Shown in pieces: positions 9,305 to 27,836 of a DNA stretch of 38,232 bases. The position numbers and the translations under genes were made by a program. Source of the DNA: Chloroflexota bacterium (GTDB lineage: Bacteria; Chloroflexota; Dormibacteria; CF-121); the NCBI GenBank assembly GCA_005881215.1, contig VBDZ01000005.1:1-38232 (forward strand), written 5' to 3'. The notes beneath the pieces are model-generated. The model was given only the letters and a program-made list of their open reading frames with translations. It was not told the origin of the DNA and did no database searches. Each line of letters opens with the position of its first letter. Position 1 is the first letter of the stretch.

Positions 9305-9334
9305 TTCAGGAGGCGGCAAACGCTGTGTTAAGAT
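9305..9334 (+). promoter_or_regulatory. L25 promoter: -35 TTCAGG, -10 TAAGAT (leadered, with SD)
   Basis: TTCAGG, 18 nt spacer, TAAGAT (17 nt if the -10 is read as TTAAGA); SD AGGAG at 9358-9362. Confidence 0.5.
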
Positions 9335-9369
9335 GGGCGCCGCCCAATTCGGGCTGAAGGAGAAACGCC

Positions 9370-10047
9370 CTGGCTACCGCCGCCCCCGTAACGTTAAAAC
9401 TCGAGCTTCGCGCCGACCGCGGCCGGCACCTCCAGGCGCTCCGCCGGCAGGGCAGGCTGCCCGGCGTGATCTACGGCCACAACGTCGATGCCGTGACCGT
9501 CATGGTGGACGGGCGCGAGTTCGTCAAAGCCTTCCAGAAGGTGGGGCGCAACCAGCTCGTGGACCTCCAGGTCGCCGATGAGCCGGTCCGCAAGGCGCTG
9601 GTCCGCGAGGTGCAACGGAGCCCGCGCGATGGCGACCTGCTCCACGTCGACTTCTACCAGGTCAACCTCACCGAGAAGATCGAGTCCGAAGTGCCGATCG
9701 AGATCGAGGGCGAGGTCGAGCTGGTCTCCAAGGGTGAAGCCGACCTGCAGCGCGGCCTGCACGTCCTGAAAGTCGAGTGCCTCCCGACCGACCTGCCGCC
9801 GGTGATCACGGTCGACGTTTCCGCTCTCAAGGAAATCGACGACGAGATTCGGGTGAAGGACTTGAAGACACCGGCCGGCTGCGAGATCCTCGACGAGCCC
9901 GATGACCTGATCGTCAAGGTCGCTGCCCACCGCGAAGAGGTGGAGGAGGCGGCACCGGCGCCGGCGACAGTCGAGGTGCCGACGGTTGGCGAGACCGAGG
10001 CGCCCGCCGAGGGTGGCACCGAGGGCGAAGCGCCGCCCGAGAGCTAA
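9370..10047 (+). CDS. rplY: 50S ribosomal protein L25/CTC, apparent CTG start
   Basis: LATAAPVTLKLELRADRGRHLQALRRQGRLPGVIYGHN...; in-frame TGA at 9355-9357 leaves CTG 9370 as the only plausible start covering the conserved N-terminus; AGGAG at 9358-9362. Confidence 0.88.
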   Translation: MATAAPVTLKLELRADRGRHLQALRRQGRLPGVIYGHNVDAVTVMVDGREFVKAFQKVGRNQLVDLQVADEPVRKALVREVQRSPRDGDLLHVDFYQVNLTEKIESEVPIEIEGEVELVSKGEADLQRGLHVLKVECLPTDLPPVITVDVSALKEIDDEIRVKDLKTPAGCEILDEPDDLIVKVAAHREEVEEAAPAPATVEVPTVGETEAPAEGGTEGEAPPES

Positions 10048-10061
10048 AGCCAGAGCGCCCC

Positions 10062-10067
10062 TACAAT
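10062..10067 (+). promoter_or_regulatory. -10 box TACAAT, 7 nt before ATG 10075 (leaderless mscS)
   Basis: TACAAT-gggcgcc-ATG. Confidence 0.65.
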
Positions 10068-10074
10068 GGGCGCC

Positions 10075-10944
10075 ATGCTGACGGTCGTATTAGGCGTCGT
10101 TCGATTGGCCGCAACCCCGGCGGCTACGCCAGATGTTGATCATCTCCTCGGGCAGAGCTACCTGCCCACTCGCGATGACCTGCTGAAGTTCGCCGTCGCC
10201 GTTCTCATCGTCATCGTCTTCTACCTCGCGGCCCGGCTGACTCGGTCGCTGGCGCGTAAGGAGCTCGTCAGGGTCAAGGCCGATCCGCAGGTCATCCTGC
10301 TCGTCAGCCGCATCACATTCCTCGCCGGCCTCCTCATCGGCTTCATCGCCGGCTTCACCGTGCTCTTCGGTAGTCCGGCGCTGGTGTTCGGCGGCTTCGG
10401 TTTCCTGGCGCTGGCCCTCAGCCTGGCTTTTCAGGACATCCTGAAGAACTTCATCGCCGGCATCTTCATGTTGCTGGAGCGGCCGTTTCGCCTCGGTGAT
10501 GAGATCACCGTGGACAACCACACCGGCATCGTCGAAAACATCGAGATGCGGGCGACAACGCTGCGAACGAGCGACGGCGAGCAGGTGATCACACCCAACT
10601 CGCTCGTCTACACCGGGACGATCATCAACCGCACCAGGTATCCGACGCGGCTGTTTACGCTGACGGCCAAAGTGCCGGCGGGCGCCGCGCTGGATGGCCT
10701 GGCCGAACGACTGGAGGAGCAGCTCAAAAGCCGACCCGATATCGTCAAAGACCCGCCGCCACATGTCAGCCTGCAACCGAGTCTCGATGGTGGGCTAACG
10801 CTTGAAGTCCGTTACTGGCTCGACTACCGCCGCAACGACCCGCTGGTGGTCCAGGCGTCCGTTGGGCGCCAGATCTATCAGGCGATCCAGTCGCCGACCG
10901 AGCCAACGTCGACAGGTCCCCCGAGGAAGGCGGCCGGGACCTAG
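10075..10944 (+). CDS. MscS family mechanosensitive ion channel
   Basis: VFGGFGFLALALSLAFQDILKNFIAGIFMLLERPFRLGDEITVDNHTGIVENIEMRATTLRTSDGEQVITPNS; ATG 10075 preferred because the 10066 ATG lies inside the -10 box. Confidence 0.93.
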   Translation: MLTVVLGVVRLAATPAATPDVDHLLGQSYLPTRDDLLKFAVAVLIVIVFYLAARLTRSLARKELVRVKADPQVILLVSRITFLAGLLIGFIAGFTVLFGSPALVFGGFGFLALALSLAFQDILKNFIAGIFMLLERPFRLGDEITVDNHTGIVENIEMRATTLRTSDGEQVITPNSLVYTGTIINRTRYPTRLFTLTAKVPAGAALDGLAERLEEQLKSRPDIVKDPPPHVSLQPSLDGGLTLEVRYWLDYRRNDPLVVQASVGRQIYQAIQSPTEPTSTGPPRKAAGT

Positions 10945-10956
10945 ACGGCTCGGCTG

Positions 10957-12258
10957 ATGCGAGCCCGAGCACCCTTCCGCCGAGCGCTGTCTGGCTTTGC
11001 ATCGCTCAGTCCCGCTGCTCGACAGTTCCTCGCCTTCTCCCTGCTGATCTCGATCGCCTCCGGCATCTTCAACCTCGTTTTCAACCTCTACATGAGCGCC
11101 CTCGGTTTTTCCAATGCGGTCATCGGCATCTTCAATTCGCTCCCCGCACTCGCGTTGCTTGGCGTCGGCCTACCCTTTGCGGCCCTGGCGGACCGGATCG
11201 GCTATCGCGTGTTCCTGATCGGCAGCGGGGCGCTGGCGGTGGTGGCCTCGCTGATCCTGGCCCTTGCGGGCGTGCGCCTCCTCGCCGTGCTGGCAGCCGG
11301 CAGCTTCGCCCTGGCACTGACCATCCTGGAGGTACTCGGGGCACCGGTGCTGGCCCAGGTCACCCGGGAGGCGGAGCGGGTCGCCCTCTTTGCGGTCAAC
11401 CAGTCGCTGGCGTGGATCGCCACGCTGCTTGGCGATCTGCTGGGTGGAGCGATTCCCGAAGCCGCGGCGCGAGTGGCGCACTCGTCCAGTGCTTCGGCTG
11501 GCTCGATTCGATCGGCCTTCGTGGCGATGACGCTGCTGACGGTCGCCAGCATGCCGTTTCTGGTGCGCCTGGCCGGCGCGGCCGGGCTGAAGCCCACCAG
11601 AGTGTTTCCGGTTCGCGATCTGTTGAGAGTGGACACGGTCCGCTTCGCGCGCTTCCTGCTGCCTGGCCTGATCCTCGGGATCGGCGCGGGCATGTACCTG
11701 AACTTCATCCAGCTCTATCTGTTACAGCGTTTTGGCCTGACTCCCGGACCCATTGGCGCCATTTTCGCCGTCGGGGCGGCGGCGACCGCGTTGACCACGC
11801 TGGGGGCGCCCAGAATCTCGCGTCGGCTCGGCGTGGCCCGCACCATCGGCCTGCTTCAAGTCGCGGGCTCGCCGCTGGTTCTCGCCCTCGCGTTCCTGAC
11901 GGTTCTGCCGATTGCGGTGCTGATCCTCTACGTGCGGCAGATCGCGCTCAACCTCCAGGCGCCGCTTGGCCAGGTCTTCGGCATGGAATATGTGGAGCCC
12001 GGTCAGCGGGCGCGACTGGCGACCGCGCAGACGGTGGTTGTGGGCATCGGGCTGGGTGGGATCGGCCCCCTGGTCAGCGGCTTTCTCCAGGTGCGCGGTG
12101 GCTACCAGCTGGCCTTCTCGGTGAGTGCCGTCTTCTACCTGCTTGCCGGCCTGACGTTTCTCTTGCTCTTCGGCCGGGTGCGCCTTTCCTCCGAGAGCGG
12201 CCCGCCGGCCGGCATCCCCGGCAGCGCCTCGAGGGATTCGATCGGCGAGTCCCTATAG
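10957..12258 (+). CDS. MFS transporter
   Basis: 12-TM pattern, GVGLPFAALADRIGYRVFLIGSGAL. Confidence 0.88.
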   Translation: MRARAPFRRALSGFASLSPAARQFLAFSLLISIASGIFNLVFNLYMSALGFSNAVIGIFNSLPALALLGVGLPFAALADRIGYRVFLIGSGALAVVASLILALAGVRLLAVLAAGSFALALTILEVLGAPVLAQVTREAERVALFAVNQSLAWIATLLGDLLGGAIPEAAARVAHSSSASAGSIRSAFVAMTLLTVASMPFLVRLAGAAGLKPTRVFPVRDLLRVDTVRFARFLLPGLILGIGAGMYLNFIQLYLLQRFGLTPGPIGAIFAVGAAATALTTLGAPRISRRLGVARTIGLLQVAGSPLVLALAFLTVLPIAVLILYVRQIALNLQAPLGQVFGMEYVEPGQRARLATAQTVVVGIGLGGIGPLVSGFLQVRGGYQLAFSVSAVFYLLAGLTFLLLFGRVRLSSESGPPAGIPGSASRDSIGESL

Positions 12259-12259
12259 T
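12254..12259 (+). promoter_or_regulatory. -10 box TATAGT, 6 nt before ATG 12266 (leaderless rarA), overlapping MFS stop codon
   Basis: TATAGT-caggtg-ATG. Confidence 0.6.
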
Positions 12260-12265
12260 CAGGTG

Positions 12266-13615
12266 ATGGCGCAGGAGACGCTGTTTCCAGCTCCGGAAGA
12301 GGCGGCCGCCGCGAGGGACCAGCCGCTGGCGGCGCGGATGCGTCCGCGCAGTTTGGATGAGTTCGTCGGTCAGGAGCATCTGGTTGGACCCGAGCACGAG
12401 CTGCGTCGCGCCATCGAGGAAGATCGCGTCGGGTCGATGATCCTCTGGGGTCCGCCCGGCAGCGGCAAAACGACGCTGGCCCGGCTGATTGCCCGCGTCA
12501 CCTCGTCGCACTTTGTCCCGCTGAGCGCGGTCAGCGCCGGAGTGGCGGACCTGCGGCGAAACATCGAGGAGGCGCGACTGCGTCGAGCACAGTCGGGGAA
12601 GCGAACCATTCTGTTCATCGACGAGATCCATCGCTTCAACAAGGGTCAGCAGGATGCCGTGCTGCCCTTCGTGGAGGAAGGGGTCATCACCCTGATCGGC
12701 GCGACTACCGAAAACCCATCGTTCGAAGTGAACGCCGCGCTGCTGTCGCGGACCCGGGTGTTCGTCCTTGGCGCCCTGGACGACGTGCAGGTCGGCGAGA
12801 TCATCGATCGGGCCGCCACCAATCCAGAACGCGGGCTCGGGGCGCGGCATGTCGATCTGGACGCGGAAGCGAGGAAAGCGCTGATCCGCCTGGCCAACGG
12901 CGATGCCCGGGTGGCGCTGAATGGCCTGGAGGCAGCCGCCGCGCTGGCCAAGCCGAGGCAAGGGCGGCGACCGGTCACGGCCGCACTGGTGGAAGAGGCC
13001 GTGCAGCGGCGCAATCTCCTCTACGACCGCGCCGGCGAGGAGCACTACAACATCATTTCGGCGCTACACAAGAGTCTGCGCGACAGCGACCCCGACGCCT
13101 CGCTCTACTGGCTGGGCCGGATGCTGGAGGCTGGCGAAGACCCGCTCTACGTCGCGCGGCGGCTGATTCGCTTCGCCTCGGAGGACATCGGGCTGGCCGA
13201 CCCGCAGGCGCTCACCCAGGCAGTTGCCGCCCAGCAGGCTGCCCATTTCATCGGTATGCCCGAGGCCAACCTGGCGCTGGCGCAGGCGGTGGTGTACCTC
13301 GCCACCGCGCCCAAGAGCAATGCGCTGTACGCCGCCTACACCAACGTGCAGGAGGACGTCGAACGGACGCGAGCCGACCCGGTGCCGCTCCATCTTCGCA
13401 ACGCCCCGACTCCCCTGATGCGCAAGCTTGGCTACGGCAAGGGCTACCGGTATGCGCACGACTACGAGGAGGCACAGGTGGAGCAGCAGCACCTGCCCGA
13501 CGCCATCAAGGACCGGACCTATTACCATCCGTCGGACCGGGGCTACGAGAAGATGGTCAAGGAGCGGCTCGACGCCTTCGAGGCGGCCCGCCGCGGGCGC
13601 CCGAAGACCGGCTAA
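12266..13615 (+). CDS. rarA: replication-associated recombination protein RarA/MgsA (AAA ATPase)
   Basis: LAARMRPRSLDEFVGQEHL, GPPGSGKTTLA, FIDEIHRFNKGQQDAVLPFVE, DPDASLYWLGRMLEAGEDPLYVARRLIRFASEDIG. Confidence 0.95.
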   Translation: MAQETLFPAPEEAAAARDQPLAARMRPRSLDEFVGQEHLVGPEHELRRAIEEDRVGSMILWGPPGSGKTTLARLIARVTSSHFVPLSAVSAGVADLRRNIEEARLRRAQSGKRTILFIDEIHRFNKGQQDAVLPFVEEGVITLIGATTENPSFEVNAALLSRTRVFVLGALDDVQVGEIIDRAATNPERGLGARHVDLDAEARKALIRLANGDARVALNGLEAAAALAKPRQGRRPVTAALVEEAVQRRNLLYDRAGEEHYNIISALHKSLRDSDPDASLYWLGRMLEAGEDPLYVARRLIRFASEDIGLADPQALTQAVAAQQAAHFIGMPEANLALAQAVVYLATAPKSNALYAAYTNVQEDVERTRADPVPLHLRNAPTPLMRKLGYGKGYRYAHDYEEAQVEQQHLPDAIKDRTYYHPSDRGYEKMVKERLDAFEAARRGRPKTG

Positions 13616-14076
13616 GTCGTCAGCGCCTCCACGTGGGGGCGTAGCGCCGCATAGCCATTCGCCATCACCCGCTCGTGGTTCCGCGCCAGCGCGCCTTTCG
13701 CCAGGGGTGCCACCAGGTTGAGGATCGGGTTGGTGGTGGCGACGTCCCAGTAATAGACGGCGGAGGTCACTGCTTCAACTTCCGTGAATGCCCACTTACC
13801 CGTACCGACGAGATCTCCGGTCGACCGTAGCAGAATGTGCCGGTATTCCTCGGCTTCGACCACCTCGAGGGCGTACCTGAGGCTGTACGGAAGGGAGCCG
13901 CGCACCTCGCATTCGATGACGGAGCCGATCGATCGTCCGTCCCCTCGGGTGATCGTCACCCGGCGGAAATTCTTCCACCAGTCAGGGTAGCGCTGAATGT
14001 TCAGGACGACGTCCCAAACGCGTTGAACCGGCGACCTGAAGCGCCAATCCGTGACGAAGTGGTAGGTCTCGGGCAC
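13612..14076 (-). CDS. SRPBCC (START-like/polyketide cyclase) family protein
   Basis: DWRFRSPVQRVWDVVLNIQRYPDWWKNFRRV; -10 TAGAAT 7 nt before GTG. Confidence 0.8.
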   Translation of the reverse strand: MPETYHFVTDWRFRSPVQRVWDVVLNIQRYPDWWKNFRRVTITRGDGRSIGSVIECEVRGSLPYSLRYALEVVEAEEYRHILLRSTGDLVGTGKWAFTEVEAVTSAVYYWDVATTNPILNLVAPLAKGALARNHERVMANGYAALRPHVEALTT

Positions 14077-14083
14077 GTGGCCG

Positions 14084-14089
14084 ATTCTA
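14084..14089 (-). promoter_or_regulatory. -10 box TAGAAT, 7 nt before GTG 14076
   Basis: TAGAAT-cggccac-GTG. Confidence 0.6.
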
Positions 14090-14109
14090 TGCCGTCGAAA
14101 ATCGAGCCG

Positions 14110-14140
14110 GGGTAGCCCCGCCCGGCTGGCGAGGCTACCC
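14110..14140 (-). terminator. possible terminator hairpin after the substrate-binding protein gene
   Basis: Perfect 8-bp inverted repeat GGGTAGCC...GGCTACCC; only a weak T-run (ATTTT) downstream on the minus strand. Confidence 0.4.
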
Positions 14141-14158
14141 GACTCCGAGGCTCAGCGG

Positions 14159-15073
14159 CTAAAAGCCGTGATCCTTTACCCAGGTAGCGGCAAGATCGGT
14201 GGGATCCTGCTTGTCGACGTCGGCGCTCTTGTTGAGCGCGGTCAGGTCTTTGGTGTTGAGCTTCGCGTCGATGCTGTTCAACAGCGACGTCACCTCGGTG
14301 TTGGCAACGCTACTCCGGATCAGGGGCACGATGTTGTCCGCCTGCTGCAGATGCTTATCGTCATCGAGCACGACCAGGTCGTTGGCCGAGATGCCACCGT
14401 CGCTGGAGAACACCAGGCCAATGTTGATGGCGCCGCTCTTAAATGCCGCGTAGGTCAACGGGCCGCCGGCGTCGAGCGACTTGAATGCCTTGAAGTGCAG
14501 CCCGTAGGTTTGCGCAAGGCCGGGCTGGCAGAACGGCCGCGTCGGACATTCCGGCGGTCCGCCCAGCGTCCAATTGCTTGCCACCGACGACACGTCGGAG
14601 AGCTTGGTCAGATGGTTTTGGTCGGCCTCGGCCTTCGTGACCGCAAAGGCATTCTGGTCGACTGCCGGCGAGGGGTCCAGCGCCTTGATGCCCTTGGAGT
14701 TGAGATGGGCGTTCAGCTTCTGAACATTGGCTTGGCCATCAGTGCCGGCATCCGGCGTGACGCCTTGTTTTCCTTCGACGAATGTCAGGTCGGTCGCCGC
14801 GTAGCCGGCGTAGAGGTCGATCTGGCCGCTTTCCAAGGCGGGCTCGACGATCTCGCGGTTACCGAGCTTGTCCTTGTAGTTGATGGTGTAGCCCTTGTTT
14901 TTGAGAGCGTCGCCGTAGATGTGGGCCAGGATAATGCTCTCCGAGAAGTTGAACGACGCGATCGTGATGGTCGCCTTCGTGCTGGCCGGTCCACCTGTGG
15001 ATCCGCACGCGGTCGTGATCAGCGCCAGGGCGACCATGCTGGCCCCCAGGACGTAGATTCGCTTCAAACGCAT
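14159..15073 (-). CDS. osmoprotectant (glycine betaine/choline) ABC transporter substrate-binding lipoprotein
   Basis: Lipobox ALITTAC; ITIASFNFSESIILAHIYGDALKNKGYTINYKDKLGNREIVEPALESGQIDLYAGYA; SD AGGGAGG upstream. Confidence 0.9.
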   Translation of the reverse strand: MRLKRIYVLGASMVALALITTACGSTGGPASTKATITIASFNFSESIILAHIYGDALKNKGYTINYKDKLGNREIVEPALESGQIDLYAGYAATDLTFVEGKQGVTPDAGTDGQANVQKLNAHLNSKGIKALDPSPAVDQNAFAVTKAEADQNHLTKLSDVSSVASNWTLGGPPECPTRPFCQPGLAQTYGLHFKAFKSLDAGGPLTYAAFKSGAINIGLVFSSDGGISANDLVVLDDDKHLQQADNIVPLIRSSVANTEVTSLLNSIDAKLNTKDLTALNKSADVDKQDPTDLAATWVKDHGF

Positions 15074-15107
15074 TTGCCTCGCACCTCCCTAGGTAATTAG
15101 TCGAAAA

Positions 15108-15824
15108 TTACGCCGCCGCCAGGTTCGTAGCAGTTTTTGAATCTGGATCACGGATGATTTTGGATGTCCGCAGGCCCGCAGGGGTGGCCAGCCGCTGCAA
15201 GCCGGCCAGGGAAAACTCCACGATCAGCGAGAGCAAGCCTACGAGGATGGCGCCCGCATACAGCATCGGATAGTTCTGCTGGCCGAGGCCATCGACGATG
15301 AAACGGCCGAGTCCGCCCCAGGCCACCAACGCCGCAAGCGTCGCGGTGGCGACGATGTTGACGGCCGACGTACGGAGACCCGCCATGATGAACGGCAGAG
15401 CAATCGGCAGCTCCACACGCCAGAGAACCATGCGGCCGCGCATGCCCATCCCGCGTGCGGCCTCCCGGACGTCGGCATCCACCTCGCGCATGCCGATATA
15501 GCTGTTGGTGACGATGGGTGGAATCCCCAGTGCTACCAGGGCAACGAATGCGGGCACGGCTCCAATGCCGACCAGCTCAACGGCGATCACGAGCAAGGCA
15601 AACGATGGGATGGCCCGGCCGACGTTCGAAATGTTGATGGCCAGGTTGCCCCCGCGGCCGAAGTGGCCCAGGACGACCCCAATCGGTAGCGCGATCGCGG
15701 CTGCCACCAACAGCGAGGCGCCCGACATTGCGACATGCTCGGTCAGCCGGTGGGGGATCCCGCCGTCGCCCTGCCAGTGGGCCCCGTCGAGGAACCAGCG
15801 GGCAACCTGGCCGATGAAGTTCAT
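15108..15824 (-). CDS. osmoprotectant ABC transporter permease
   Basis: BPD permease loop REAARGMGMRGRMVLWRVELPIALPFIMAGLRTSAVNIVATATLAALVAWGGLG; ATGA overlap with upstream permease. Confidence 0.92.
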   Translation of the reverse strand: MNFIGQVARWFLDGAHWQGDGGIPHRLTEHVAMSGASLLVAAAIALPIGVVLGHFGRGGNLAINISNVGRAIPSFALLVIAVELVGIGAVPAFVALVALGIPPIVTNSYIGMREVDADVREAARGMGMRGRMVLWRVELPIALPFIMAGLRTSAVNIVATATLAALVAWGGLGRFIVDGLGQQNYPMLYAGAILVGLLSLIVEFSLAGLQRLATPAGLRTSKIIRDPDSKTATNLAAA

Positions 15825-16504
15825 GCGACGGCTCGACTCCTCGCCCAGGGGGTAACGACCCGCTGGACACCGGCGAGGCTCACGTCGGCGACGATCGCCA
15901 GCGCGACCGAGAGCAGCGTGCCAATCACCAGCGGCGTCTTGAAATCGCGGATCAGGCCGTCGAGGATCAAGCTGCCCAGCCCACCCTCGCCAATCAGCGC
16001 TGTCACCGTCACCAGTCCGATGGTGGTCACGGTCGCGATCCGGATCCCGGCGATGATGGCCGGGACGGCAAGCGGAAAGTCCACCTGTACGAGTTGCTTA
16101 AGCGGCCGGTACCCCATCCCGACCGCCGCCTCGCGCACGTCCCCGGGAACGGAATCCAGGCCGATCACGATATTGCGAATCAAGATCAGCAGCGTGTAGC
16201 TCACCAGACCGATCTCGGCGGTGAGAATCGTGAGCCCGGTAAAGGGAATCAAGAACGAGAACAGCGCGAGGGAGGGAATCGTGTAGAGGATGCCCGTCAG
16301 CGAGAAGATGGGTCCTCGGAGCAGCCGCTCGCGCCACGCCAGCAACCCGAGTGGGACGGCGATCAGGACGCCGAGGCCGACAGCGATGATGGTCAGCTCG
16401 ATGTGCTGGCTGAGTGCGGCCCCGATGACGTCCAGATGGCGAGATACCCAGTCCCACCGGATCCAGGGGTCATCGGCGGCTCCCACAAACCCGGTGGCGA
16501 GCAT
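15821..16504 (-). CDS. osmoprotectant ABC transporter permease
   Basis: REAAVGMGYRPLKQLVQVDFPLAVPAIIAGIRIATVTTIGLVTVTALIGEGGLG; start at MLATGFV based on -10 TAGCAT 7 nt upstream. Confidence 0.9.
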   Translation of the reverse strand: MLATGFVGAADDPWIRWDWVSRHLDVIGAALSQHIELTIIAVGLGVLIAVPLGLLAWRERLLRGPIFSLTGILYTIPSLALFSFLIPFTGLTILTAEIGLVSYTLLILIRNIVIGLDSVPGDVREAAVGMGYRPLKQLVQVDFPLAVPAIIAGIRIATVTTIGLVTVTALIGEGGLGSLILDGLIRDFKTPLVIGTLLSVALAIVADVSLAGVQRVVTPWARSRAVA

Positions 16505-16511
16505 GGGCACG

Positions 16512-16517
16512 ATGCTA
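16512..16517 (-). promoter_or_regulatory. -10 box TAGCAT, 7 nt before ATG 16504
   Basis: TAGCAT-cgtgccc-ATG. Confidence 0.55.
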
Positions 16518-16559
16518 TCAGCCGCCTCGACGGCCCGCAATTTACAGTAGAACTTTCTA

Positions 16560-17675
16560 ATGATTCGCCTGGAACGGGTGACCAAGCACTACCCGGGCGG
16601 TCAGGCGGCCGTCCGCGAGCTCTCGATCGAGTTCCCAACCGGCCAGCTGACCATGCTGGTCGGTCCTTCCGGATGTGGCAAGACCACGACCCTGAAGATG
16701 ATCAACCGGCTGATCGAGCCCACCAGCGGCCGGATCTTTCACGACGACCAGGACGTGACCCATATCGACCCCATCGCGCTCCGGCTGCGGATGGGTTACG
16801 TCATTCAAAACGTTGGGCTCTTTCCCCACATGAACATCGCCGACAACGTCGGCACGGTGCCTCGCCTGCTGGGCTGGGACAAGAGCCGCACGCAGCAGCG
16901 CGTCACCGAGCTGCTCGAGCTCGTTGGCCTGGATCCGCGACAGTTCTCGCGGCGCTACCCGCACCAGCTGTCCGGCGGGCAGCGGCAGCGGGTGGGGGTG
17001 GCCCGCGCGCTCGGCGCCGACCCACCTGTCCTGCTCATGGACGAGCCGTTCGGCGCCATCGACCGGATCGCACGCGAGCGGCTCCAGAATGAGTTCCTTC
17101 GAATCCAGCGTGAGGTTCGCAAGACCGTGATCTTCGTCACCCATGACATCGACGAGGCGATCAAGCTCGGCGACCGGATCGCCATCATGAATCTGGGCCA
17201 GCTCGTCCAGTACGACACTCCGGCGGCGATCCTGGCCAGGCCGGCCACGGATCTCGTCATCGACCTGCTCGGCCCCGACCGCGGCTTGAAGCGGTTGTCG
17301 GTTACGCCTATCGACCTGGGGGCGCTGGAGCAGCCGCCCGTCGTCCACCTGGATGACGCTCTCGTCGAGGCCCGCCGGCAGCTCGACGGGCGCTGGCGGC
17401 GCGCCATCGTCCTCGATCGCGACGACCGGCCGGTCGCCGAACTCGATCGGGACCGGGCCGACGGCGACGGGCGCGCCGGTGACCGTGCCCAGCCGCTCGA
17501 TGCCACGATTTCGGCGGACCGGACGTTATACGATGCGTTCTCGCAAATGCTGATCCATCAGGCGATCTGGGTTGCGGTTGTGGACGGGTCCCGCTTTCGC
17601 GGCGTGCTCACCCCGGAATCGTTCGTGGCGGCGATCCAGCGCGTGCCGGCGGAAGTCGAGGGCGCACGCCGGTGA
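16560..17675 (+). CDS. osmoprotectant ABC transporter ATP-binding protein with degenerate C-terminal CBS-like region
   Basis: Walker A GPSGCGKTTTLKMIN, LSGGQRQRVGVARAL, LLMDEPFGAIDRIARERLQNEF; opposite strand to the permeases. Confidence 0.93.
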   Translation: MIRLERVTKHYPGGQAAVRELSIEFPTGQLTMLVGPSGCGKTTTLKMINRLIEPTSGRIFHDDQDVTHIDPIALRLRMGYVIQNVGLFPHMNIADNVGTVPRLLGWDKSRTQQRVTELLELVGLDPRQFSRRYPHQLSGGQRQRVGVARALGADPPVLLMDEPFGAIDRIARERLQNEFLRIQREVRKTVIFVTHDIDEAIKLGDRIAIMNLGQLVQYDTPAAILARPATDLVIDLLGPDRGLKRLSVTPIDLGALEQPPVVHLDDALVEARRQLDGRWRRAIVLDRDDRPVAELDRDRADGDGRAGDRAQPLDATISADRTLYDAFSQMLIHQAIWVAVVDGSRFRGVLTPESFVAAIQRVPAEVEGARR

Positions 17676-17953
17676 TCCTGAATCGGGGAAACCTGTTCTC
17701 GTTCCTGGTGACGGCCTTCGTCGGCGCGATCTTCCTGCTGATGGTCTTCGAAACCTGGGCGCTGTTCACCGGTAACAAGACGATCAGCGACTATTTCCGC
17801 GAGGCCGTGCACGCGTTTCCGGGTTGGGCGTTCGTCATCGCCGTCCTGGCGGGAATCACGCTCGGGCATTTTCTCTGGGGCCCGGCCACCGGCCGCCTGG
17901 CGCCAGCGCCCCGCCGGCTGAGTCAGCTGAGGAATCGAAACCCTGCAGCTTAA
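17672..17953 (+). CDS. small two-TM membrane protein (paralog A)
   Basis: 93 aa MILNRGNLFSFLVTAFVGAIFLLMVFETWALF...; GTGA overlap with ATPase stop; paralog immediately downstream. Confidence 0.75.
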   Translation: MILNRGNLFSFLVTAFVGAIFLLMVFETWALFTGNKTISDYFREAVHAFPGWAFVIAVLAGITLGHFLWGPATGRLAPAPRRLSQLRNRNPAA

Positions 17954-18155
17954 TCCCGGCGCGATTCTCTCTCTGCTGGTCACGATCTTTGTCGGCGTCC
18001 TCTTCATCGTGATGCTCAGCGAAACGATTGCGCTGGGCAAGGGCCGGGATCCGATGACCAACCTCATCCGATCCGTGATGCGCGCCTACCCTCGCTTCAG
18101 TTATGTCGTCGCGGTTGTGATCGGCATGCTCCTCGGCCACCTGTTCTGGCCGTAA
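17943..18155 (+). CDS. small two-TM membrane protein (paralog B), apparent CTG start
   Basis: 70 aa (M)QLNPGAILSLLVTIFVGVLFIVMLSETIALGKGRDPMTNLIRSVMRAYPRFSYVVAVVIGMLLGHLFWP; ungapped alignment to paralog A from residue 1; in-frame stop TGA at 17928; AGGA at 17930-17933. Confidence 0.75.
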   Translation: MQLNPGAILSLLVTIFVGVLFIVMLSETIALGKGRDPMTNLIRSVMRAYPRFSYVVAVVIGMLLGHLFWP

Positions 18156-18188
18156 GCTCCAAGACGGCCAGGCGTTGAACCGGAAACC

Positions 18189-19091
18189 TTACGCCGTCTT
18201 CCGCCGCTTCTGTGAGGTGCGCCGACCGGCATTTGATGCGTTGCGTTGCGTTGCGCCGCCTTTCTTCCGGGTTGCCTCAACGCTCGCCCGCAGCGCCTCC
18301 ATCAGGTCCACGACTTTCTCGCCGGGCTCGGCCGGCGCTTCGGGCAGTGGTGCGCCTTGGACTTTAGCGTCGATCACCTGCTTGAGCGCGGTCTGGTACG
18401 CGTCTTCGTACCGCTCGGCGTCGAAGCTATCGCTGAGGTTTTCGATCAACGAGACAGCCATCTGCAATTCTTTCGGTGAGACTTTCGCGCCCTCGGCGGC
18501 AATGGCGTCGGTCGATCGGATCTCGTTCGCATAGAACATTGTCTCCATCGACAACACGTCCTGGTAGGGACGGACCAGGCATAGGTTCTCCTTGTCGCGG
18601 ATGGCCACTTTGGCAACCGCGGCGCGCCCGGTCTGCTGGAGCGCCTGCCTCAGCAGTGAAAAGGCCTTGATGCCAGCCTCGTCCGGGGCGAGGTAATACG
18701 CCTTGTCGAAGTAGATCGGGTCGACCTCTTCGAGCTTGACGAAGTCCGAAATGTCGACGGTGTGGACCGTCTTCACGGGAAGGTGATCGAGCTCCTCATC
18801 GGTGAGCGGGACATAGCGCCCCTTGGCATACTCGAATCCGCGCACGACTTCCTCCCAGGGCACGGCCTTTTCGTCTTTGGGGCACCAGCGAACGTTCTTC
18901 AGACGCACGCCGTCCTTTTTGTGGAGCAGGTGGAACCGCACATCGTGCGATTCGGTCGCGGTATGGAGGCTGACCGGGATGCTGACCATCCCGAACGAGA
19001 TCGTGCCCCTCCAGATCGCCCGCGGCGCCCTCCGTGTCCCTTCCGCCGCTCTCGCTGGTTTGCGCGCCGTCCTTTGCGCCATACCTGACAT
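18189..19091 (-). CDS. ku: Ku protein (bacterial NHEJ DNA end-binding)
   Basis: RAIWRGTISFGMVSIPVSLHTATESHDVRFHLLHKKDGVRLKNVRWCPKDEKAVPWEEVVRGFEYAKGRYV; basic C-terminal tail; exact start uncertain. Confidence 0.95.
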   Translation of the reverse strand: MSGMAQRTARKPARAAEGTRRAPRAIWRGTISFGMVSIPVSLHTATESHDVRFHLLHKKDGVRLKNVRWCPKDEKAVPWEEVVRGFEYAKGRYVPLTDEELDHLPVKTVHTVDISDFVKLEEVDPIYFDKAYYLAPDEAGIKAFSLLRQALQQTGRAAVAKVAIRDKENLCLVRPYQDVLSMETMFYANEIRSTDAIAAEGAKVSPKELQMAVSLIENLSDSFDAERYEDAYQTALKQVIDAKVQGAPLPEAPAEPGEKVVDLMEALRASVEATRKKGGATQRNASNAGRRTSQKRRKTA

Positions 19092-19139
19092 CAAGGGTAT
19101 CACCATGGCGTTCGCTCCGCCGGCGCCCTCCGTGGTGGC

Positions 19140-19145
19140 TACACT
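19140..19145 (+). promoter_or_regulatory. -10 box TACACT, 6 nt before GTG 19152
   Basis: TACACT-ccggtg-GTG. Confidence 0.55.
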
Positions 19146-19151
19146 CCGGTG

Positions 19152-19991
19152 GTGCCGCTGGCCGTATTTCCCCTGGTCCTTGTGGCGGCCGTCTGCCACG
19201 CCGCCTGGAACGCACTGATGAAAGCGTCGGAAAACCCGCTGTCCCTGGCAGCAAGGGCGATGACGCTCGGCACCGTTGTCTCGCTTCCGCCGGTCGCGAC
19301 CCTGTGGCTGATCCAGGGGCGCCCGGGCTTGCCGTTCGCAGGCTGGTTGCTTGCCCTCGGATCGGCCATGCTCGAACTGACCTACTTCATCACGCTGTCA
19401 ACCGCCTACCGGCGCGGCGAGCTGTCCGTGGTCTATCCGATCGCCCGCGGGACCGCGCCGCTGCTGGCGGTGGCCGTGGGGGTGGTGATTCTCGGTGAGC
19501 GGCTTCACCTGGTTGCCGTCGCCGGCATCCTCTTATTGCTGGGCGGCATCTGGGCTGTGCGGCGGCCTACCAGCGCCGGGGCGGCACTCGGGCCCGCCGT
19601 GATGACGGGCATTCTGATCGCCGCGTACACCTCGCTCGACCGGGTCGGTGTCCGGTTGGGGCCGCCCTGGCTGTACGGGTGGCTGCTCTGGTTGTTCGCG
19701 GCGATCTTCCTCCTGGTCTTTACGCGGACCCGCCGCGTGACGGAACGACGGTTGACCGACGAGCTGGGCACGTCACTGGCGGTCGGAGTCTTGATGACGG
19801 GTGCCTACTTCATGATCCTGTTCGCGCTGAGCATCGCGCCGCTGGCCATCGTGGCCCCGCTTCGCGAATCGGCGATCGTGCTGGTCACGGCCTGGGGAAT
19901 CTGGCGGCTGGGGGAGCGGCGCGGCGCCTGGATCCGGATAGCCGGCGCCGTCGCTATCGTAGGGGGGATCGCCCTGCTGACGATCGCCTGA
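19152..19991 (+). CDS. EamA/DMT superfamily transporter
   Basis: 10-TM pattern, SVVYPIARGTAPLLAVAVGVVILGERLHLVAVAGILLLLGG; start GTG 19149 or 19152. Confidence 0.88.
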   Translation: MPLAVFPLVLVAAVCHAAWNALMKASENPLSLAARAMTLGTVVSLPPVATLWLIQGRPGLPFAGWLLALGSAMLELTYFITLSTAYRRGELSVVYPIARGTAPLLAVAVGVVILGERLHLVAVAGILLLLGGIWAVRRPTSAGAALGPAVMTGILIAAYTSLDRVGVRLGPPWLYGWLLWLFAAIFLLVFTRTRRVTERRLTDELGTSLAVGVLMTGAYFMILFALSIAPLAIVAPLRESAIVLVTAWGIWRLGERRGAWIRIAGAVAIVGGIALLTIA

Positions 19992-20102
19992 TCAGGGCAG
20001 TGCCGGCCTGAAGGTGGTCAGCGCCGGCAGGACGAAGAACCACATCGCCGCCACGATGATGCCGACGAAGATCAGCATGGAGAAGATTGGCCGGCCAGTC
20101 AT
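19992..20102 (-). CDS. putative 36-aa membrane peptide MTGRPIFSMLIFVGIIVAAMWFFVLPALTTFRPALP
   Basis: Strong SD AGGAGG 9 nt before ATG; hydrophobic core; stop abuts EamA stop; not in ORF track. Confidence 0.55.
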   Translation of the reverse strand: MTGRPIFSMLIFVGIIVAAMWFFVLPALTTFRPALP

Positions 20103-20201
20103 GTCTGAGCCCCTCCTACCTGACTGAACCCACACGAGCCGTCATATCCTGCTCGATCGTTAGGCAGGGAAGAGCAGCCGGAATTCGTATTCGGAAAGGA
20201 G

Positions 20202-20276
20202 TCGGGGCGAGTGGATTTGAACCACCGACCTCACGGTCCCGAACCGTGCACTCTAACCTGGCTGAGCTACGCCCCG
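20202..20276 (-). tRNA. tRNA-Pro (anticodon CGG)
   Basis: CGGGGCG-TA-GCTC-AGCCAGGTTA-GAGT-G-CACGG-TTCGGGA-CCGTG-AGGTC-GGTGG-TTCAAAT-CCACT-CGCCCCG-A; CCA not encoded. Confidence 0.95.
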
Positions 20277-20324
20277 ATCAGCAATTGCCAATGATACCCT
20301 CTCTTTTGCGCGCCGCGGCCTCAG

Positions 20325-20398
20325 GCCCTCGTAGCTCAGGGGATCAGAGCGCCTCCGTCCTAAGGAGGGCGTCGCAGGTTCGAGTCCTGCCGAGGGCA
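20325..20398 (+). tRNA. tRNA-Arg (anticodon CCT)
   Basis: GCCCTCG-TA-GCTC-AGGGGATCA-GAGC-G-CCTCC-GTCCTAA-GGAGG-GCGTC-GCAGG-TTCGAGT-CCTGC-CGAGGGC-A; CCA not encoded. Confidence 0.95.
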
Positions 20399-20407
20399 AT
20401 TGCCTCC

Positions 20408-20413
20408 TAAGAT
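20408..20413 (+). promoter_or_regulatory. -10 box TAAGAT, 6 nt before ATG 20420
   Basis: TAAGAT-gggcgc-ATG. Confidence 0.6.
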
Positions 20414-20419
20414 GGGCGC

Positions 20420-20896
20420 ATGATCGCGACCGACATCAATCCCGCGCTCAAGCCGGCCGAGTTCCTCCTTGGCACCTGGCGCGGCGAGGGTGAAGGCCAG
20501 TATCCAACCATCCGGCCCTTCCGCTACCGGGAGGAGATCCGCTTCTCGCACAATGGCAAGCCGTTTCTGATCTATGCCCAGCGCACCGAGGCGATCGAGA
20601 CGGGCCAGCCGATGCACCGCGAAGCCGGCTACCTGCGGCTGGTGGGCGACGGTCGCGTCGAGTTCGTGATCGCGCAGCCGATCGGCTACGCGGAGATTTC
20701 CCTCGGCCGGGTCGACGGCCACCGGATCGATGTCGAATGCACCAGCGTCGCCCGCACGCCGACGGCAAAGCCGGTCACCTCGATCAGCCGATCACTCTGG
20801 CTCGACGGCGATACCCTGCGTTACGAGCTGAAGATGGCGTTGGAAGGCGTTCCCCTCGCCCGTCACCTTGTGGCGAGCTTCAGCCGCGTCGACTGA
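20420..20896 (+). CDS. nitrobindin-family (FABP-like, DUF1794) heme-binding beta-barrel protein
   Basis: PAEFLLGTWRGEGEGQYPTIRPFRYREEIRFSHNGKPFLIYAQRT...HREAGYLRL. Confidence 0.85.
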   Translation: MIATDINPALKPAEFLLGTWRGEGEGQYPTIRPFRYREEIRFSHNGKPFLIYAQRTEAIETGQPMHREAGYLRLVGDGRVEFVIAQPIGYAEISLGRVDGHRIDVECTSVARTPTAKPVTSISRSLWLDGDTLRYELKMALEGVPLARHLVASFSRVD

Positions 20897-20901
20897 AGCG
20901 A

Positions 20902-21684
20902 TCAGTGGGGGCTCTGCTCGAGCAGTCGTCGCGATACCCGCGTGATGACTCGCCGCGGCGACAGCCGCACCACAACCGGCAGGAGTCGGTTGCCCAGGCC
21001 AGGAATGACGAGCGATTTCCCCGCCATCAGTCCGCGATACCCGGCCAGCGCGACCGAGGCGGCGTCAGCCAGCGACCCCCTGACGAGTCGGGCATCCTCC
21101 AGCTTGCCTCGCTCCTGGAATCCCGACCGCGTCGGCCCGGGAGCCAACGCCGTGACCGCTACGCCGGTGCCCTTCAACTCGTTGGCCAGGGCCTCGGAGA
21201 ATGACAGGACATAGGCCTTGCTCGCGTAGTAGACCGCCATCAACGGTCCGGGCACGAAGGCGGCGGTCGAGGCCAGGTTGAGGACGTGCCCCGCCCCACG
21301 TTCGACCATGCCCCTGAGGAAGAGCTTGGTGAGCGCGGTCAGCGCCACCACGTTGACCTGCAGCATCTCGAGCTCCGCCTGCAAGTCGGTCTCCACGAAG
21401 CGACCGTACACCGGGAAGCCCGCGTTATTGACGAGCGCATCGACCTTCAGCGATGCGGCCGTGACCTCTTCGTAGATCTCATCGACCGTGGATGGGTTCG
21501 ACAAATCCTTGGCCAGCACCAGCGTCTTGACCCGAAACTCGCTCTCCAGTCGGGCGGCGAGCTCGTCCAGTTTGTCGCGGCTGCGGGCTACCAGCACGCA
21601 GTCGTACCGGTCGCGCGCAAACAGCAGCGCCAGCTCGTAGCCGATGCCGCCAGAGGCACCGGTGATCAGCGCGGTCTTACTCAT
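20902..21684 (-). CDS. SDR family oxidoreductase
   Basis: MSKTALITGASGGIGYELALLFA, NNAG, YYASKAYVLSFSEALANEL; ATGA overlap with upstream gene. Confidence 0.93.
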   Translation of the reverse strand: MSKTALITGASGGIGYELALLFARDRYDCVLVARSRDKLDELAARLESEFRVKTLVLAKDLSNPSTVDEIYEEVTAASLKVDALVNNAGFPVYGRFVETDLQAELEMLQVNVVALTALTKLFLRGMVERGAGHVLNLASTAAFVPGPLMAVYYASKAYVLSFSEALANELKGTGVAVTALAPGPTRSGFQERGKLEDARLVRGSLADAASVALAGYRGLMAGKSLVIPGLGNRLLPVVVRLSPRRVITRVSRRLLEQSPH

Positions 21685-22319
21685 GCCGACGGCTCCTCCA
21701 CAAAGCTTTGCTCCCCGGCGCGGATCGGGACCGGTAACCAGTTCTCGCGCGGCGCCAGTGGACACGCCCAGCGCGCGTCATACGCGCACGAGGGGTTGTA
21801 GGCGAAGTTGAAGTCGATCCCGACCTCGGGCGACCCCGCCCGGGTTTCGAGCGCGAGGCCATCGGTGTGCTTCACGGTGTCGAAGAGGTAGCGGCCGCCA
21901 CCATACGTCTCCTTCCCCGACGTGCCGTCGCGGAAGGGGAGGAACAACCCGCCGCCGTAACCCACCAGGCTGAAGACCGTGAGCTGGCACCCCTGGCCGG
22001 CAATCCGAAATCGCAGCCGGCCTGCCCTCCGATAGGTGATCACCCCGTCCTCGCCGCCGGTGTCGATCTCGATCGGGTCACCGGCCTCCATCGCCTCGAG
22101 TCGACAACGCAATTTGAGGTCCCGCTCCGGCTCGAAGTAGCGAAGACCCCGAAAGCTCGGCCGCGCTTCCACCGATAGCGGCGATTGCGGGTGCGTTCGA
22201 AACAACTCGTCGCGACCCTGCCGGAACCGGTGGAGCGCATCCGGACCGGTCAGTCGATAGAGGTCGCCGACCCGCCGTCGCCAGTCGACCAGGTCGAGAT
22301 AGGTTTGCGTGTCGGTCAG
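21681..22319 (-). CDS. DUF1684 family protein, apparent CTG start overlapping helicase stop (CTGA)
   Basis: C-terminus DFNFAYNPSCAYDARWACPLAPRENWLPVPIRAGEQ; frame continues upstream of ORF-track TTG 22205 as (M)TDTQTYLDLVDWRRRVGDLYRLTGPDALHRFRQGRDELFRTHPQSPL. Confidence 0.8.
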   Translation of the reverse strand: MTDTQTYLDLVDWRRRVGDLYRLTGPDALHRFRQGRDELFRTHPQSPLSVEARPSFRGLRYFEPERDLKLRCRLEAMEAGDPIEIDTGGEDGVITYRRAGRLRFRIAGQGCQLTVFSLVGYGGGLFLPFRDGTSGKETYGGGRYLFDTVKHTDGLALETRAGSPEVGIDFNFAYNPSCAYDARWACPLAPRENWLPVPIRAGEQSFVEEPSA

Positions 22320-24859
22320 CTGCCGCGCTCGACCGGTTGGGCCGTCGGCAGGGGTTCGGGAGCGGGCGCCGCCGCCGTCCCGTCGCCGGCGCTCGCGCCA
22401 CCCTGGGCCGCGCCGTTCGTCGCCGGGAAGTTTCCGCGCCGCCGACCGCGCCGGCGCCGGAATTTCCGCGGCGGAGCCGCTCCGTTTTCGGTTGGAGCCA
22501 CCACGTCCGGCGACTCAGCGCCGTTGCTCGCGACCGGGGTGCCCGGTGTGCCCGTCACGACCGGTCGGGGGCCAAACCCGCGCCGCCGCCGGCGCGGTCG
22601 ACCCAGCGGTGCGCCCGCCGGTCGTTGCCGGCGGCGATCGCCGCGCCGCCGCCCGCCGACCGCCGCATCCATGGCGTGCAGCGCGCCGATCCCGGCGACC
22701 CGGCCTTCTCGCTCGATGTGCTCGAGCAGCGGCCGGTAGAGATCCTGTCCTTCGCGGCCGGTCATCGTCTCGATGTCGCCGACTACCACCAGCAGTTGCT
22801 TTGCCCGGGAGATCGCGACGTTCAACCGCTGCGCCTTCTTCAGGAAGCCGATCCGCTCCGCCTCGTTGCTCCGCACCAGGCTGAGGATCACGACGTCGGC
22901 CTCCTCGCCCTCGAAGGCATCGACGGTATCGACGGCCAGTCCCGGGAGCGCGACCATGCGCAATTCCCGGCGCAGTTGGGTGACCTGGTCCTGGTACATG
23001 GCGATCACGGCCACCCGAAGCTGCTCGAGCCCGAGCCGCTGCAGGTGGCGCACCACCCGGCCCACCGCCTCGATCTCGGCGCGGTTCGAGATGCTTCCCG
23101 AGCCGCCCTTCTTTTCCCGGCCGCGGATCGTGAGCCAGGTGAGGTTGCGATTGAACGGCCAGGGCAGCGGCGAGCGCAGTGCCGCCATCTCGGGCGAGTT
23201 GCGCAGCCGGCCGTCGTAGGAGGCGACCGAGACATAGCTCCCGATGGGCGCCGCCATCCGGTACTGCTCGTCGAGCATCACCAGGTTGGTTTCAGGAACG
23301 ACTGCCCAGCTCAACTCGAAGAAGCTGGCATCGCGCACCATGGATTTCGCCTCGTCATCGTCGACCGGGAACGCGGCGGCGCTTTCGTCGAGCACCGGCG
23401 GCAGCTGGCGGTGATCGCCGACCAGCAGCCAGCGCGGCGCCAGGCGCAGCAGGGGCAGGGTCTCGGTGAAGCGCACCTTGTTCGCCTCGTCGAGGATCAG
23501 CCAGTCGAACATCTCAGCTTCTTTACAGGCGAGCGCGATGCGGTTCACGGTGCCGAAGACCACGTGCGCGTTGCGGACCCGTGGGTCATCGGCCTCGACG
23601 ATGCTGGCCCGGAACTTCGGATCGACCTTCTCCGGCTCGGCGATGCGGACCATTCGAAGGGCGTCGAGGCCCTGCAGGCGTTCCTGCGCATTGTCGACCG
23701 CGGTGTTGGCGTGCGAGGTCATCAGGATGCGGACGTTCGGATCGCGGGCCACCAGCTGGCGAACCGTCTCCACGATCGAGGTGGTCTTGCCGGTCCCGGG
23801 CGGTCCCTGGACGAGCTGCATGCTGCCGGGGAAGAGGTTGACCGCGCTGGTCACCGCCTGCCGCTGGCTGGGATTCAAGCGATCATCGAACGGCTGGAGA
23901 TCCGCCGTTCCCGGCGATAACACCTCGTCGGGCGCGATCAGCAGGGCGGCGACGCGCCGCAGGCTGATGTCGCCCGCCGGGAAGCCGTTCAACGTACGCT
24001 GCTGGACTTCGACCACGGCGGTGATCGGCTGCGGCCGGACGGTTCCTGGGCCGAGCACCCCCTCCTCGCGTAACTTGACGAGCCAGCGCCGGCCGCCGCC
24101 CTCGCCGCGGAGCAGGGTCCCCTCACGCTCCGCGCCATGGGCGGTGCGGATGATGACCCGGTCGCCTTCTTTGAAGCCGCCGCGCCGGCTGAGCACGATC
24201 AAGGCGCCGGCGTTTCGGTCGCCATTGGTAGCGCCGCAGACGCCGCACTTCGCACCATTCACCTGGAGGTTCTCGCACTTGCTGCAGATGACGCCTTCGG
24301 TTTCGACCTCGTACGGCCGAGCGTCTTGCTCGGCCTGCCAGGCGAGCCACTGCCGCTCGTGATTGGCGAAGGCCTGGCCGGCCAGCACCAGGGGCAGCTG
24401 GGCCGCTTCCTCGAGGGCGGTCAGCTGGCGCCGCACCCAATCCTCCTCGGGGACATAGGTGGCTTCCTGGGGCTCCGCTTCAGCGACCTCGATCGTCAAC
24501 ACGTCGCCCGCATCCTTGGTGGGATCGGGGTCGGGCTGGACCCGCTCGACGAGGAAGGCGATATCGCGGCCCGGCAGGCCGAACAACTGCCCCACCAGGC
24601 CGAACCGCTCGATGCTGGTCTCGGTCCGTTTCTGCAGGTTCAAGGTGAACCGGACGGGGGCGTTCTTGATGTCCACGTAGCCGTCACCCTCGGTGGCTTC
24701 GGTGAGCAACGCGATCAGGGCGTCCTGCCCCAGGTGGGCGAGCAGGGTCTCGGCCTGGCTCTGCGGCGCGGCGCAGACTTTCAGCCGGACCGCGGTGATG
24801 TCGGGGGCCCGATGGGCGAACGGCGACCCCGCGGCAACAGGCGGCAACCGTAAGGTCAA
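22316..24859 (-). CDS. UPF1/IGHMBP2-like superfamily 1 DNA/RNA helicase with internal CxxC zinc motif and Arg-rich C-terminal tail
   Basis: LVQGPPGTGKTTSIVETVRQL, DWLILDEANKV, LVGDHRQLPPVL, VDTVDAFEGEEADVVILSLVRSN, LNVAISRAKQLLVVVGD; TTG start with AAGGAG. Confidence 0.9.
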   Translation of the reverse strand: MTLRLPPVAAGSPFAHRAPDITAVRLKVCAAPQSQAETLLAHLGQDALIALLTEATEGDGYVDIKNAPVRFTLNLQKRTETSIERFGLVGQLFGLPGRDIAFLVERVQPDPDPTKDAGDVLTIEVAEAEPQEATYVPEEDWVRRQLTALEEAAQLPLVLAGQAFANHERQWLAWQAEQDARPYEVETEGVICSKCENLQVNGAKCGVCGATNGDRNAGALIVLSRRGGFKEGDRVIIRTAHGAEREGTLLRGEGGGRRWLVKLREEGVLGPGTVRPQPITAVVEVQQRTLNGFPAGDISLRRVAALLIAPDEVLSPGTADLQPFDDRLNPSQRQAVTSAVNLFPGSMQLVQGPPGTGKTTSIVETVRQLVARDPNVRILMTSHANTAVDNAQERLQGLDALRMVRIAEPEKVDPKFRASIVEADDPRVRNAHVVFGTVNRIALACKEAEMFDWLILDEANKVRFTETLPLLRLAPRWLLVGDHRQLPPVLDESAAAFPVDDDEAKSMVRDASFFELSWAVVPETNLVMLDEQYRMAAPIGSYVSVASYDGRLRNSPEMAALRSPLPWPFNRNLTWLTIRGREKKGGSGSISNRAEIEAVGRVVRHLQRLGLEQLRVAVIAMYQDQVTQLRRELRMVALPGLAVDTVDAFEGEEADVVILSLVRSNEAERIGFLKKAQRLNVAISRAKQLLVVVGDIETMTGREGQDLYRPLLEHIEREGRVAGIGALHAMDAAVGGRRRGDRRRQRPAGAPLGRPRRRRRGFGPRPVVTGTPGTPVASNGAESPDVVAPTENGAAPPRKFRRRRGRRRGNFPATNGAAQGGASAGDGTAAAPAPEPLPTAQPVERGS

Positions 24860-25023
24860 GGGCGCTCCTTGTAGCGCATAAGATTGGACCTGGCTTTCAC
24901 AGGTGGGCCGACGGCTAGCCACCCCTTCGGCGGAGCGTCGGACAGGCGCGAGCAATCGAACCTGTCTAACCCGGCCCCCAGTATAACGCCAAATAGGGGT
25001 CAACGCCACCGGGTTGGTTGCTC

Positions 25024-26609: not shown

Positions 26610-27836
26610 TCACTGCCCGACGTCCAGCTCACGATCAGCGTGACCGTCGGCTGGGCGATTAGATGAGCCCGGTCGAAGCAGCACGTAGGCGGTGACGCCG
26701 CCGAGAATCAGCCCGCCGTAGAGACCAACCGCCGAGAGCCAGGCCAGCCCCGGGCTGGCCTGATAGACCGTTGCACGGGCCCCGTCCAGTTGCGCCTGCA
26801 GCTCGATCAAAAGCCAGCCGGCGACCCCGAGGCCCAGCAACCACCAGCGTCCATTAAGCCGGGTGTAGACAAACGCGACGGCGAGCAGCAGCGGGGTGAA
26901 ATTCCACAGCGAGTTCTTCGGGGCACAAACGACCCCCAGCCAGAGGCTCAAGGCGAACGCGCCATCCCACGGGTGACCCGGCGCTACCAGCAGCACGACG
27001 ACGGTTGCCAGGGTGAGCAGGAGGACGAGGGTCAGCATGGCGGCTTCGACCGGCAAACCGGAAAGCGGGGCGTGGGTCCAGGTGGAGTCGATCCCCAGCC
27101 GGCTCAGCCAGCCATTGATCGATTCGTTGCTCCAGTAGGTGTCCGGCCCGAGGAAATATCCGCCCCGTTCAGAGAAGCTGCCGCCACCGGAACCGAGTTG
27201 GAAGAGCAGCAATCCGCCGAGCAGCGGGATCCCGGTGGCGAGCACCCGCCAGCGCGGCGGCCGCGCGGTCAGCGCCGCCAGAAACCCGCCCACCGGGTAG
27301 AGCTTGATCGCACTGGCGATGCCGAGCATGAGGCCCGGGATGGCCGCGCGATAGGCGACGGCCAGCAGGAGCAAGACGATCAGGTTCGCCTGACCGAAGT
27401 AGAGCGAGCCGATCACCGGCGGAAAGAGACCGGCCACCACGCCACCCGTGATCGCCAGTGGCCAGCCCAGCTGTGGCAGCGACCGCAGCAGGATAGCGAT
27501 CGCGAACGCCAGCGCCACCAGGCTCAGGATGGAGAAGATCGCGGCGGCGGTCACCGGCGGGAGGAGCGCGAGGGGGCGTATCAGGTGGGCGAAGAAGAGC
27601 GGATACGAGTAGCCGCTGCCCGTCTCCACGTGCACCCCGGCGGCCCGCTGCACTGCCGTCAGCGCGGCGACGTCGTAGGGATTCTCACCGCGATTCAGCA
27701 GCACGCCGGCGGCCCAGTAATCGTAGAAGTCGTTGAGCTGGCCCGACATGCCGATGGTCGCGAAGCTGTAGACGACTCGGAGCAGGGCCACCACGGCGGC
27801 CAGGCACCCGCCGACCAGGGCACGCGGCCCGATCAG
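26610..27836 (-). CDS. GT87/DUF2029-like polyprenyl-phosphate-dependent mannosyltransferase-type membrane protein (5' end uncertain)
   Basis: DFYDYWAAGVLLNRGENPYD...YPLFFAHLIRPLALLPP; polytopic; ORF-track start GTG 27794 truncates TM1, so the start may be CTG 27836. Confidence 0.75.
   Translation of the reverse strand: MIGPRALVGGCLAAVVALLRVVYSFATIGMSGQLNDFYDYWAAGVLLNRGENPYDVAALTAVQRAAGVHVETGSGYSYPLFFAHLIRPLALLPPVTAAAIFSILSLVALAFAIAILLRSLPQLGWPLAITGGVVAGLFPPVIGSLYFGQANLIVLLLLAVAYRAAIPGLMLGIASAIKLYPVGGFLAALTARPPRWRVLATGIPLLGGLLLFQLGSGGGSFSERGGYFLGPDTYWSNESINGWLSRLGIDSTWTHAPLSGLPVEAAMLTLVLLLTLATVVVLLVAPGHPWDGAFALSLWLGVVCAPKNSLWNFTPLLLAVAFVYTRLNGRWWLLGLGVAGWLLIELQAQLDGARATVYQASPGLAWLSAVGLYGGLILGGVTAYVLLRPGSSNRPADGHADRELDVGQ

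Follow-up and report, generated by a model that had tools for sequence, protein, structure and literature searches.

The window, a 38,232-nucleotide stretch of DNA analysed at its full length, is contig C152 of a 2.79-Mb Candidatus Dormiibacterota soil MAG that is 88% complete and has a G+C content of about 66%. Along it lie a gene for ribosomal protein L25 of the CTC type, a tandem pair of genes for small membrane proteins, a DUF1684 gene that overlaps an AAA helicase gene, and a GT87 glycosyltransferase gene (Table 1). For four of these genes an earlier note had proposed initiation at CTG, with three proposals regarded as well supported (9370, 17943 and 22319) and one as weaker (27836). We compared these loci with 14 genomes of the same genus and three further genomes of the same family, taking ATG, GTG and TTG as the canonical start codons.

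Table 1 Genes and sequence elements of the window that bear on CTG initiation.
Feature	Coordinates	Strand	Remarks
TTAAGAT, probable -10 element ahead of L25	9328..9334	+	Conserved in the genus
Shine-Dalgarno AAGGAG of L25	9357..9362	+	Present in all genus genomes
Ribosomal protein L25 gene (CTC type)	9370..10047	+	Probable CTG start; Pfam L25p and TL5_C
Upstream small membrane protein gene	17672..17953	+	GTG start; paralogue of the 17943 gene
Small membrane protein gene	17943..18155	+	Probable CTG start; 11-nt overlap with the preceding gene
DUF1684 gene	21681..22319	-	Probable CTG start in a CTGA overlap; Pfam DUF1684
AAA helicase gene	22316..25009	-	Its TGA stop overlaps the DUF1684 CTG
GT87 glycosyltransferase gene	26610..27836	-	Start codon not assigned

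The L25 start sits in the context TGA AGG AGA AAC GCC CTG GCT ACC GCC, where CTG 9370 lies 7 bases past the AAGGAG and 12 bases past the in-frame TGA at 9355-9357. The frame offers no canonical codon before the GTG at 9466, which is residue 33 of the 225-residue product, and the Pfam L25p match begins at residue 9. Among the 14 genus genomes that carry the gene (window included), the start column holds CTG in 13 and GTG in one, and in G001 and G006 a TAA stands immediately 5′ of the CTG. The family's other genera start L25 with GTG or TTG, and a sister family mostly uses ATG.

The downstream member of the membrane-protein pair reads TGA GGA ATC GAA ACC CTG CAG around its start, and the first canonical codon of its open frame comes only after 26 codons; the alternatives to CTG 17943 are ATC 17934 and ACC 17940, both of them weaker. 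Read from their starts, the tandem paralogues have the N-termini MQLNPG and MILNRG. Most relatives have GTG-CTG at this site, while the window and G005 have ACC-CTG, and CTG seems to have taken over as the start once the GTG was lost. The paralogous membrane proteins encoded at 17672-18155 are 70-93 aa long, have no Pfam match and are confined to the genus among the 19 genomes searched.

In the DUF1684 frame, no ATG, GTG or TTG occurs between an in-frame stop near 22514 and position 22205, where the first canonical codon is residue 39 and falls well within the conserved N-terminus. Its orthologues start with CTG in G003 and G010, with TTG in G007, and with ATG in G001 and G006. The three well-supported proposals of the earlier note are therefore upheld, each in a frame that lacks a usable canonical start. 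The weaker fourth is not: CTG 27836 of the GT87 gene is CTC in two close relatives, G005 and G001, out of five in the genus that carry the gene, and was rejected as a start. A different codon of this gene, CTG 27818, aligns with a TTG of G005.

A scan for CTG starts covered 0.93 of the 2.79 Mb of the window's genome (902 complete genes) and recorded coding signal reaching upstream of the first ATG, GTG or TTG; the long contigs were partly chosen from a listing of AAGGAG-N(4-9)-CTG sites, which gives a mild bias to Shine-Dalgarno-led cases. Ten genes have solid CTG starts, against one doubtful case among the 664 genes of two control plasmids taken together, pSymB and pRHL1 (P = 0.03, a modest difference). 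With about 54% of such starts detectable, the ten solid cases correspond to an estimated frequency of about 2% of genes. They comprise the L25, 17943 and DUF1684 genes of the window together with argS, atpG, a nucleotidyltransferase-like gene on C214, a SIS-type gene on C45, MFS transporter genes on C144 and C9, and a lipoprotein gene on C8, where names outside the Pfam-tested set were given by sequence resemblance. The start of argS is CTG in all 18 family genomes and forms a CTGA in every one; that of atpG, which encodes a standard AtpG N-terminus, is CTG in 6 of 7 genomes and ATG in the other. The C214 gene starts with CTG in four genomes, GTG in one and ACG in one, and the SIS gene with CTG in 5 of 5.

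The earlier note had divided the contexts of its proposed starts into Shine-Dalgarno-led, Shine-Dalgarno plus overlap and overlap only. The starts found here are led by a Shine-Dalgarno sequence (L25, atpG and the nucleotidyltransferase gene) or overlap an upstream stop as CTGA (argS, DUF1684, the SIS-domain gene and an MFS transporter gene). The geometry of these CTGA overlaps is identical to that of ATGA-type coupling overlaps, from which they differ in starting with CTG rather than ATG, GTG or TTG.

The overall share of genes without a canonical start is not raised, being 3.2% here as compared with 3.4-3.6% in pSymB and pRHL1; only the CTG signature differs, and we discarded the raw rate as a measure. 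An EM fit of start-codon weights for all 61 codons, which ranked CTG first in the window's genome and in G003 and is given little weight, was also set aside, as it was noisy and any added codon raised the likelihood. When the canonical starts of relatives were mapped onto the genome, CTG was the top non-canonical codon (8 of 126), but several of these were internal starts called wrongly. Sites of the form AAGGAG-N(4-9)-CTG are fewer than in a reversed control, and the pattern by itself proves nothing. The ksgA gene was left doubtful as a CTG-start gene, with CTC at the site in G012, and prfB, a candidate missing-start gene, shows the known frameshift site of release factor 2. This programmed frameshift site, AGGAGC ATCTTTGAC, lies on the minus strand of G000:C204 near 34846. 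Sister families also show a few CTG starts (G019; pooled other families). A histidine-phosphatase-like gene (LTRFFLIRHAEVENPHRVLYGH) has a CTGA-overlap start in L217 and L218, which belong to other Dormiibacterota families, and given this gene CTG starts may extend beyond the window's family.

The main weight of the case for CTG starts is conservation, not counts. The start columns of L25 and argS hold only CTG or GTG and that of atpG only CTG or ATG, whereas internal CTG columns, with the window's genome as reference, take other codons, mainly CTC but also CTT, in 9 of 9 cases in L25 and 36 of 36 in argS. In L25 and atpG the CTG column thus trades with ATG, GTG or TTG and not with synonymous leucine codons. 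In the stretch from the CTG to the first canonical codon, changes fall on the three codon positions as 60/37/164 in L25 and 5/0/36 in atpG, and because third-position changes prevail, the intervening codons are translated. The C of the argS CTG doubles as the free third base of the last proline codon of the upstream gene, where A, G or T would give a canonical start and leave both proteins unaltered. All 18 of the 18 genomes retain this C, as compared with two further columns among the final 150 codons of the upstream gene that are CCC in the window's genome and stay CCC in 3 of 18 and 9 of 18, a difference that suggests selection on the argS CTG itself. The broader claims that CTG starts exceed chance expectation and recur as a trait of the lineage are borne out by this contrast between NTG-only start columns and varied internal CTG columns, by the counts from the scan, and by conservation over the genus and, for argS, over the whole family.

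Every one of 61 genomes carries the anticodon stem-loop GGGCTCATAACCC of the initiator tRNA, with its core single-copy in the window's genome, and the RsmD 16S methylase is likewise found in 61 of 61. IF3 aligns over its full length with solved Thermus and E. coli type IF3 chains, a comparison made at the level of the whole-chain alignment. The window's own genome yielded no 16S gene, and the 16S check rests on G003 and G015, in which the sites around 790, 926, 1338/1339 and 1400 as well as the anti-Shine-Dalgarno sequence are ordinary. The infC gene (G000:C45:64047; L001:1252) has an ACG start that follows AAGGAGG and lies one codon past an in-frame TGA. This arrangement is kept in 17 of 17 family genomes (including L325-L340), and the outgroups use ATC (Ca. 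Dormiibacter and Longilinea) or ATT (Levilinea). A near-cognate infC start marks IF3 autoregulation, for which discrimination has to work, and E. coli infC has an AUU start with such autoregulation. Because infC keeps its conserved near-cognate ACG, our analysis suggests that IF3 proofreading against near-cognate codons still operates. The infC of this family resembles that of E. coli in its near-cognate start, here family-wide, but uses ACG instead of AUU or AUC, and most of the CTG genes are not translation-factor genes. Candidate non-NTG starts elsewhere in the genome are an ACG after AGGGAG in a glutamine-synthetase-like gene (G000:C17:17384, minus strand), an ATA in a sigma factor gene (G000:C45:29264) and an ATC in a pseudouridine synthase gene (G000:C45:45942).

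We consider it likely that the CTG codons are genuine translation starts, weak ones, which the standard machinery reads and selection in part maintains. The usual fMet initiator tRNA would read CUG despite a first-position C-U mismatch, such that the protein would begin with Met, and the low affinity of the codon could be made up for by the strong Shine-Dalgarno sequence in the genes led by one and by reinitiation at the CTGA overlap in the others named above. CUG is probably retained in part on purpose, as a start whose low strength determines how much protein is made, because ATG, GTG and TTG are each one change away and are usually not taken. One example may be the ratio of one gamma to three alpha subunits, provided that atpG stands behind atpA in the usual operon order. 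A bolder version, which we offer as possible though doubtful, would make CTG a standing, family-wide fourth start codon of Dormiibacterota in about 2% of genes, aided by some adaptation of the initiation machinery (rRNA modification, IF1, IF2 or fine changes in IF3) and serving essential operons as a low-strength setting under selection.

The earlier note had instead suggested that decoding may be relaxed in this lineage, through IF3, the initiator tRNA or 16S features. On this reading, a change in IF3, the initiator tRNA, the 16S rRNA or its modification would raise CUG initiation in general, and CTG starts would drift in neutrally. The recurrence of CTG starts in unrelated genes, the few in sister families, and the ACG, ATA and ATC candidates in the sample would all fit such relaxation, but inspection of infC and the initiator tRNA speaks against it. 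The tRNA core is unaltered and RsmD retained throughout, IF3 looks ordinary in the alignment, the 16S sites are ordinary in the two family genomes, the ACG of infC in all 17 family genomes is as expected if IF3 discriminates, and the argS C over 18 genomes looks selected rather than drifting. We therefore regard relaxed decoding as unlikely. It is markedly less probable that translation begins elsewhere, either at a canonical codon that is out of frame or upstream, with a frameshift to follow, or at a different near-cognate codon, ATC for example. The L25 gene is preceded by an out-of-frame ATG at 9333, at the end of TTAAGAT, an ATC lies ahead of CTG 17943, and prfB of this genome seems to use a programmed frameshift; the ATG at 9333, however, falls within the probable -10 element, G005 has ATT in its place, so that this ATG plus a frameshift is ruled out for L25 in that genome, and the NTG exchange in L25 and atpG points at the CTG itself. 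Finally, the genomes are metagenome assemblies, in which assembly or sequencing errors might have made CTG from ATG, GTG or TTG, yet as many as 18 genomes, each assembled separately, share the same CTG. Such error is refuted for L25, argS, atpG and the SIS gene, CTG 17943 is present in two species, and we give this explanation almost no credence.

Genuine but weak CTG initiation has partial parallels in other bacteria. Proteogenomics of Deinococcus deserti, like our organism a bacterium outside the usual models, has reportedly turned up non-canonical start codons beyond ATG, GTG and TTG; the Dormiibacterota case differs in that its evidence is family-wide conservation, with CTG used in several core genes. 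No report of CTG starts in Dormiibacterota was found in the open-access literature searched. CUG initiation complexes are less stable than those on AUG, GUG and UUG, and CUG is not a common bacterial start (PMC11497404). In that E. coli work, fMet tRNA sits on CUG with a first-position C-U mismatch and normal positions 2 and 3, as we propose here, but CUG is inefficient there, and the discrimination-lowering C30-G40 tRNA variant is absent from our genomes. Mycobacteria share a high G+C content and abundant GTG starts with Dormiibacterota, yet a mycobacterial screen of leadered initiation showed no enrichment of CTG, which made up 0.03% of selected reads, and its authors state a paucity of CTG starts (PMC4633059).

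The systematic mis-annotation of N-termini that the earlier note foresaw stands insofar as it follows for any gene finder restricted to ATG, GTG and TTG; the finders in common use do not consider CUG, and CTG-start proteins are probably annotated too short in Dormiibacterota. Such a finder would trim 32 residues off L25, and trimmed N-termini have consequences for annotation, domain calls and proteomics in a soil phylum that has received little study. Selected start-codon strength becomes directly testable, in argS and atpG, as a setting of protein ratios. With CTG conserved on L25, argS and atpG, that is, on core genes for a ribosomal protein, a tRNA synthetase and ATP synthase, a whole lineage would rely on a codon that most bacteria avoid.
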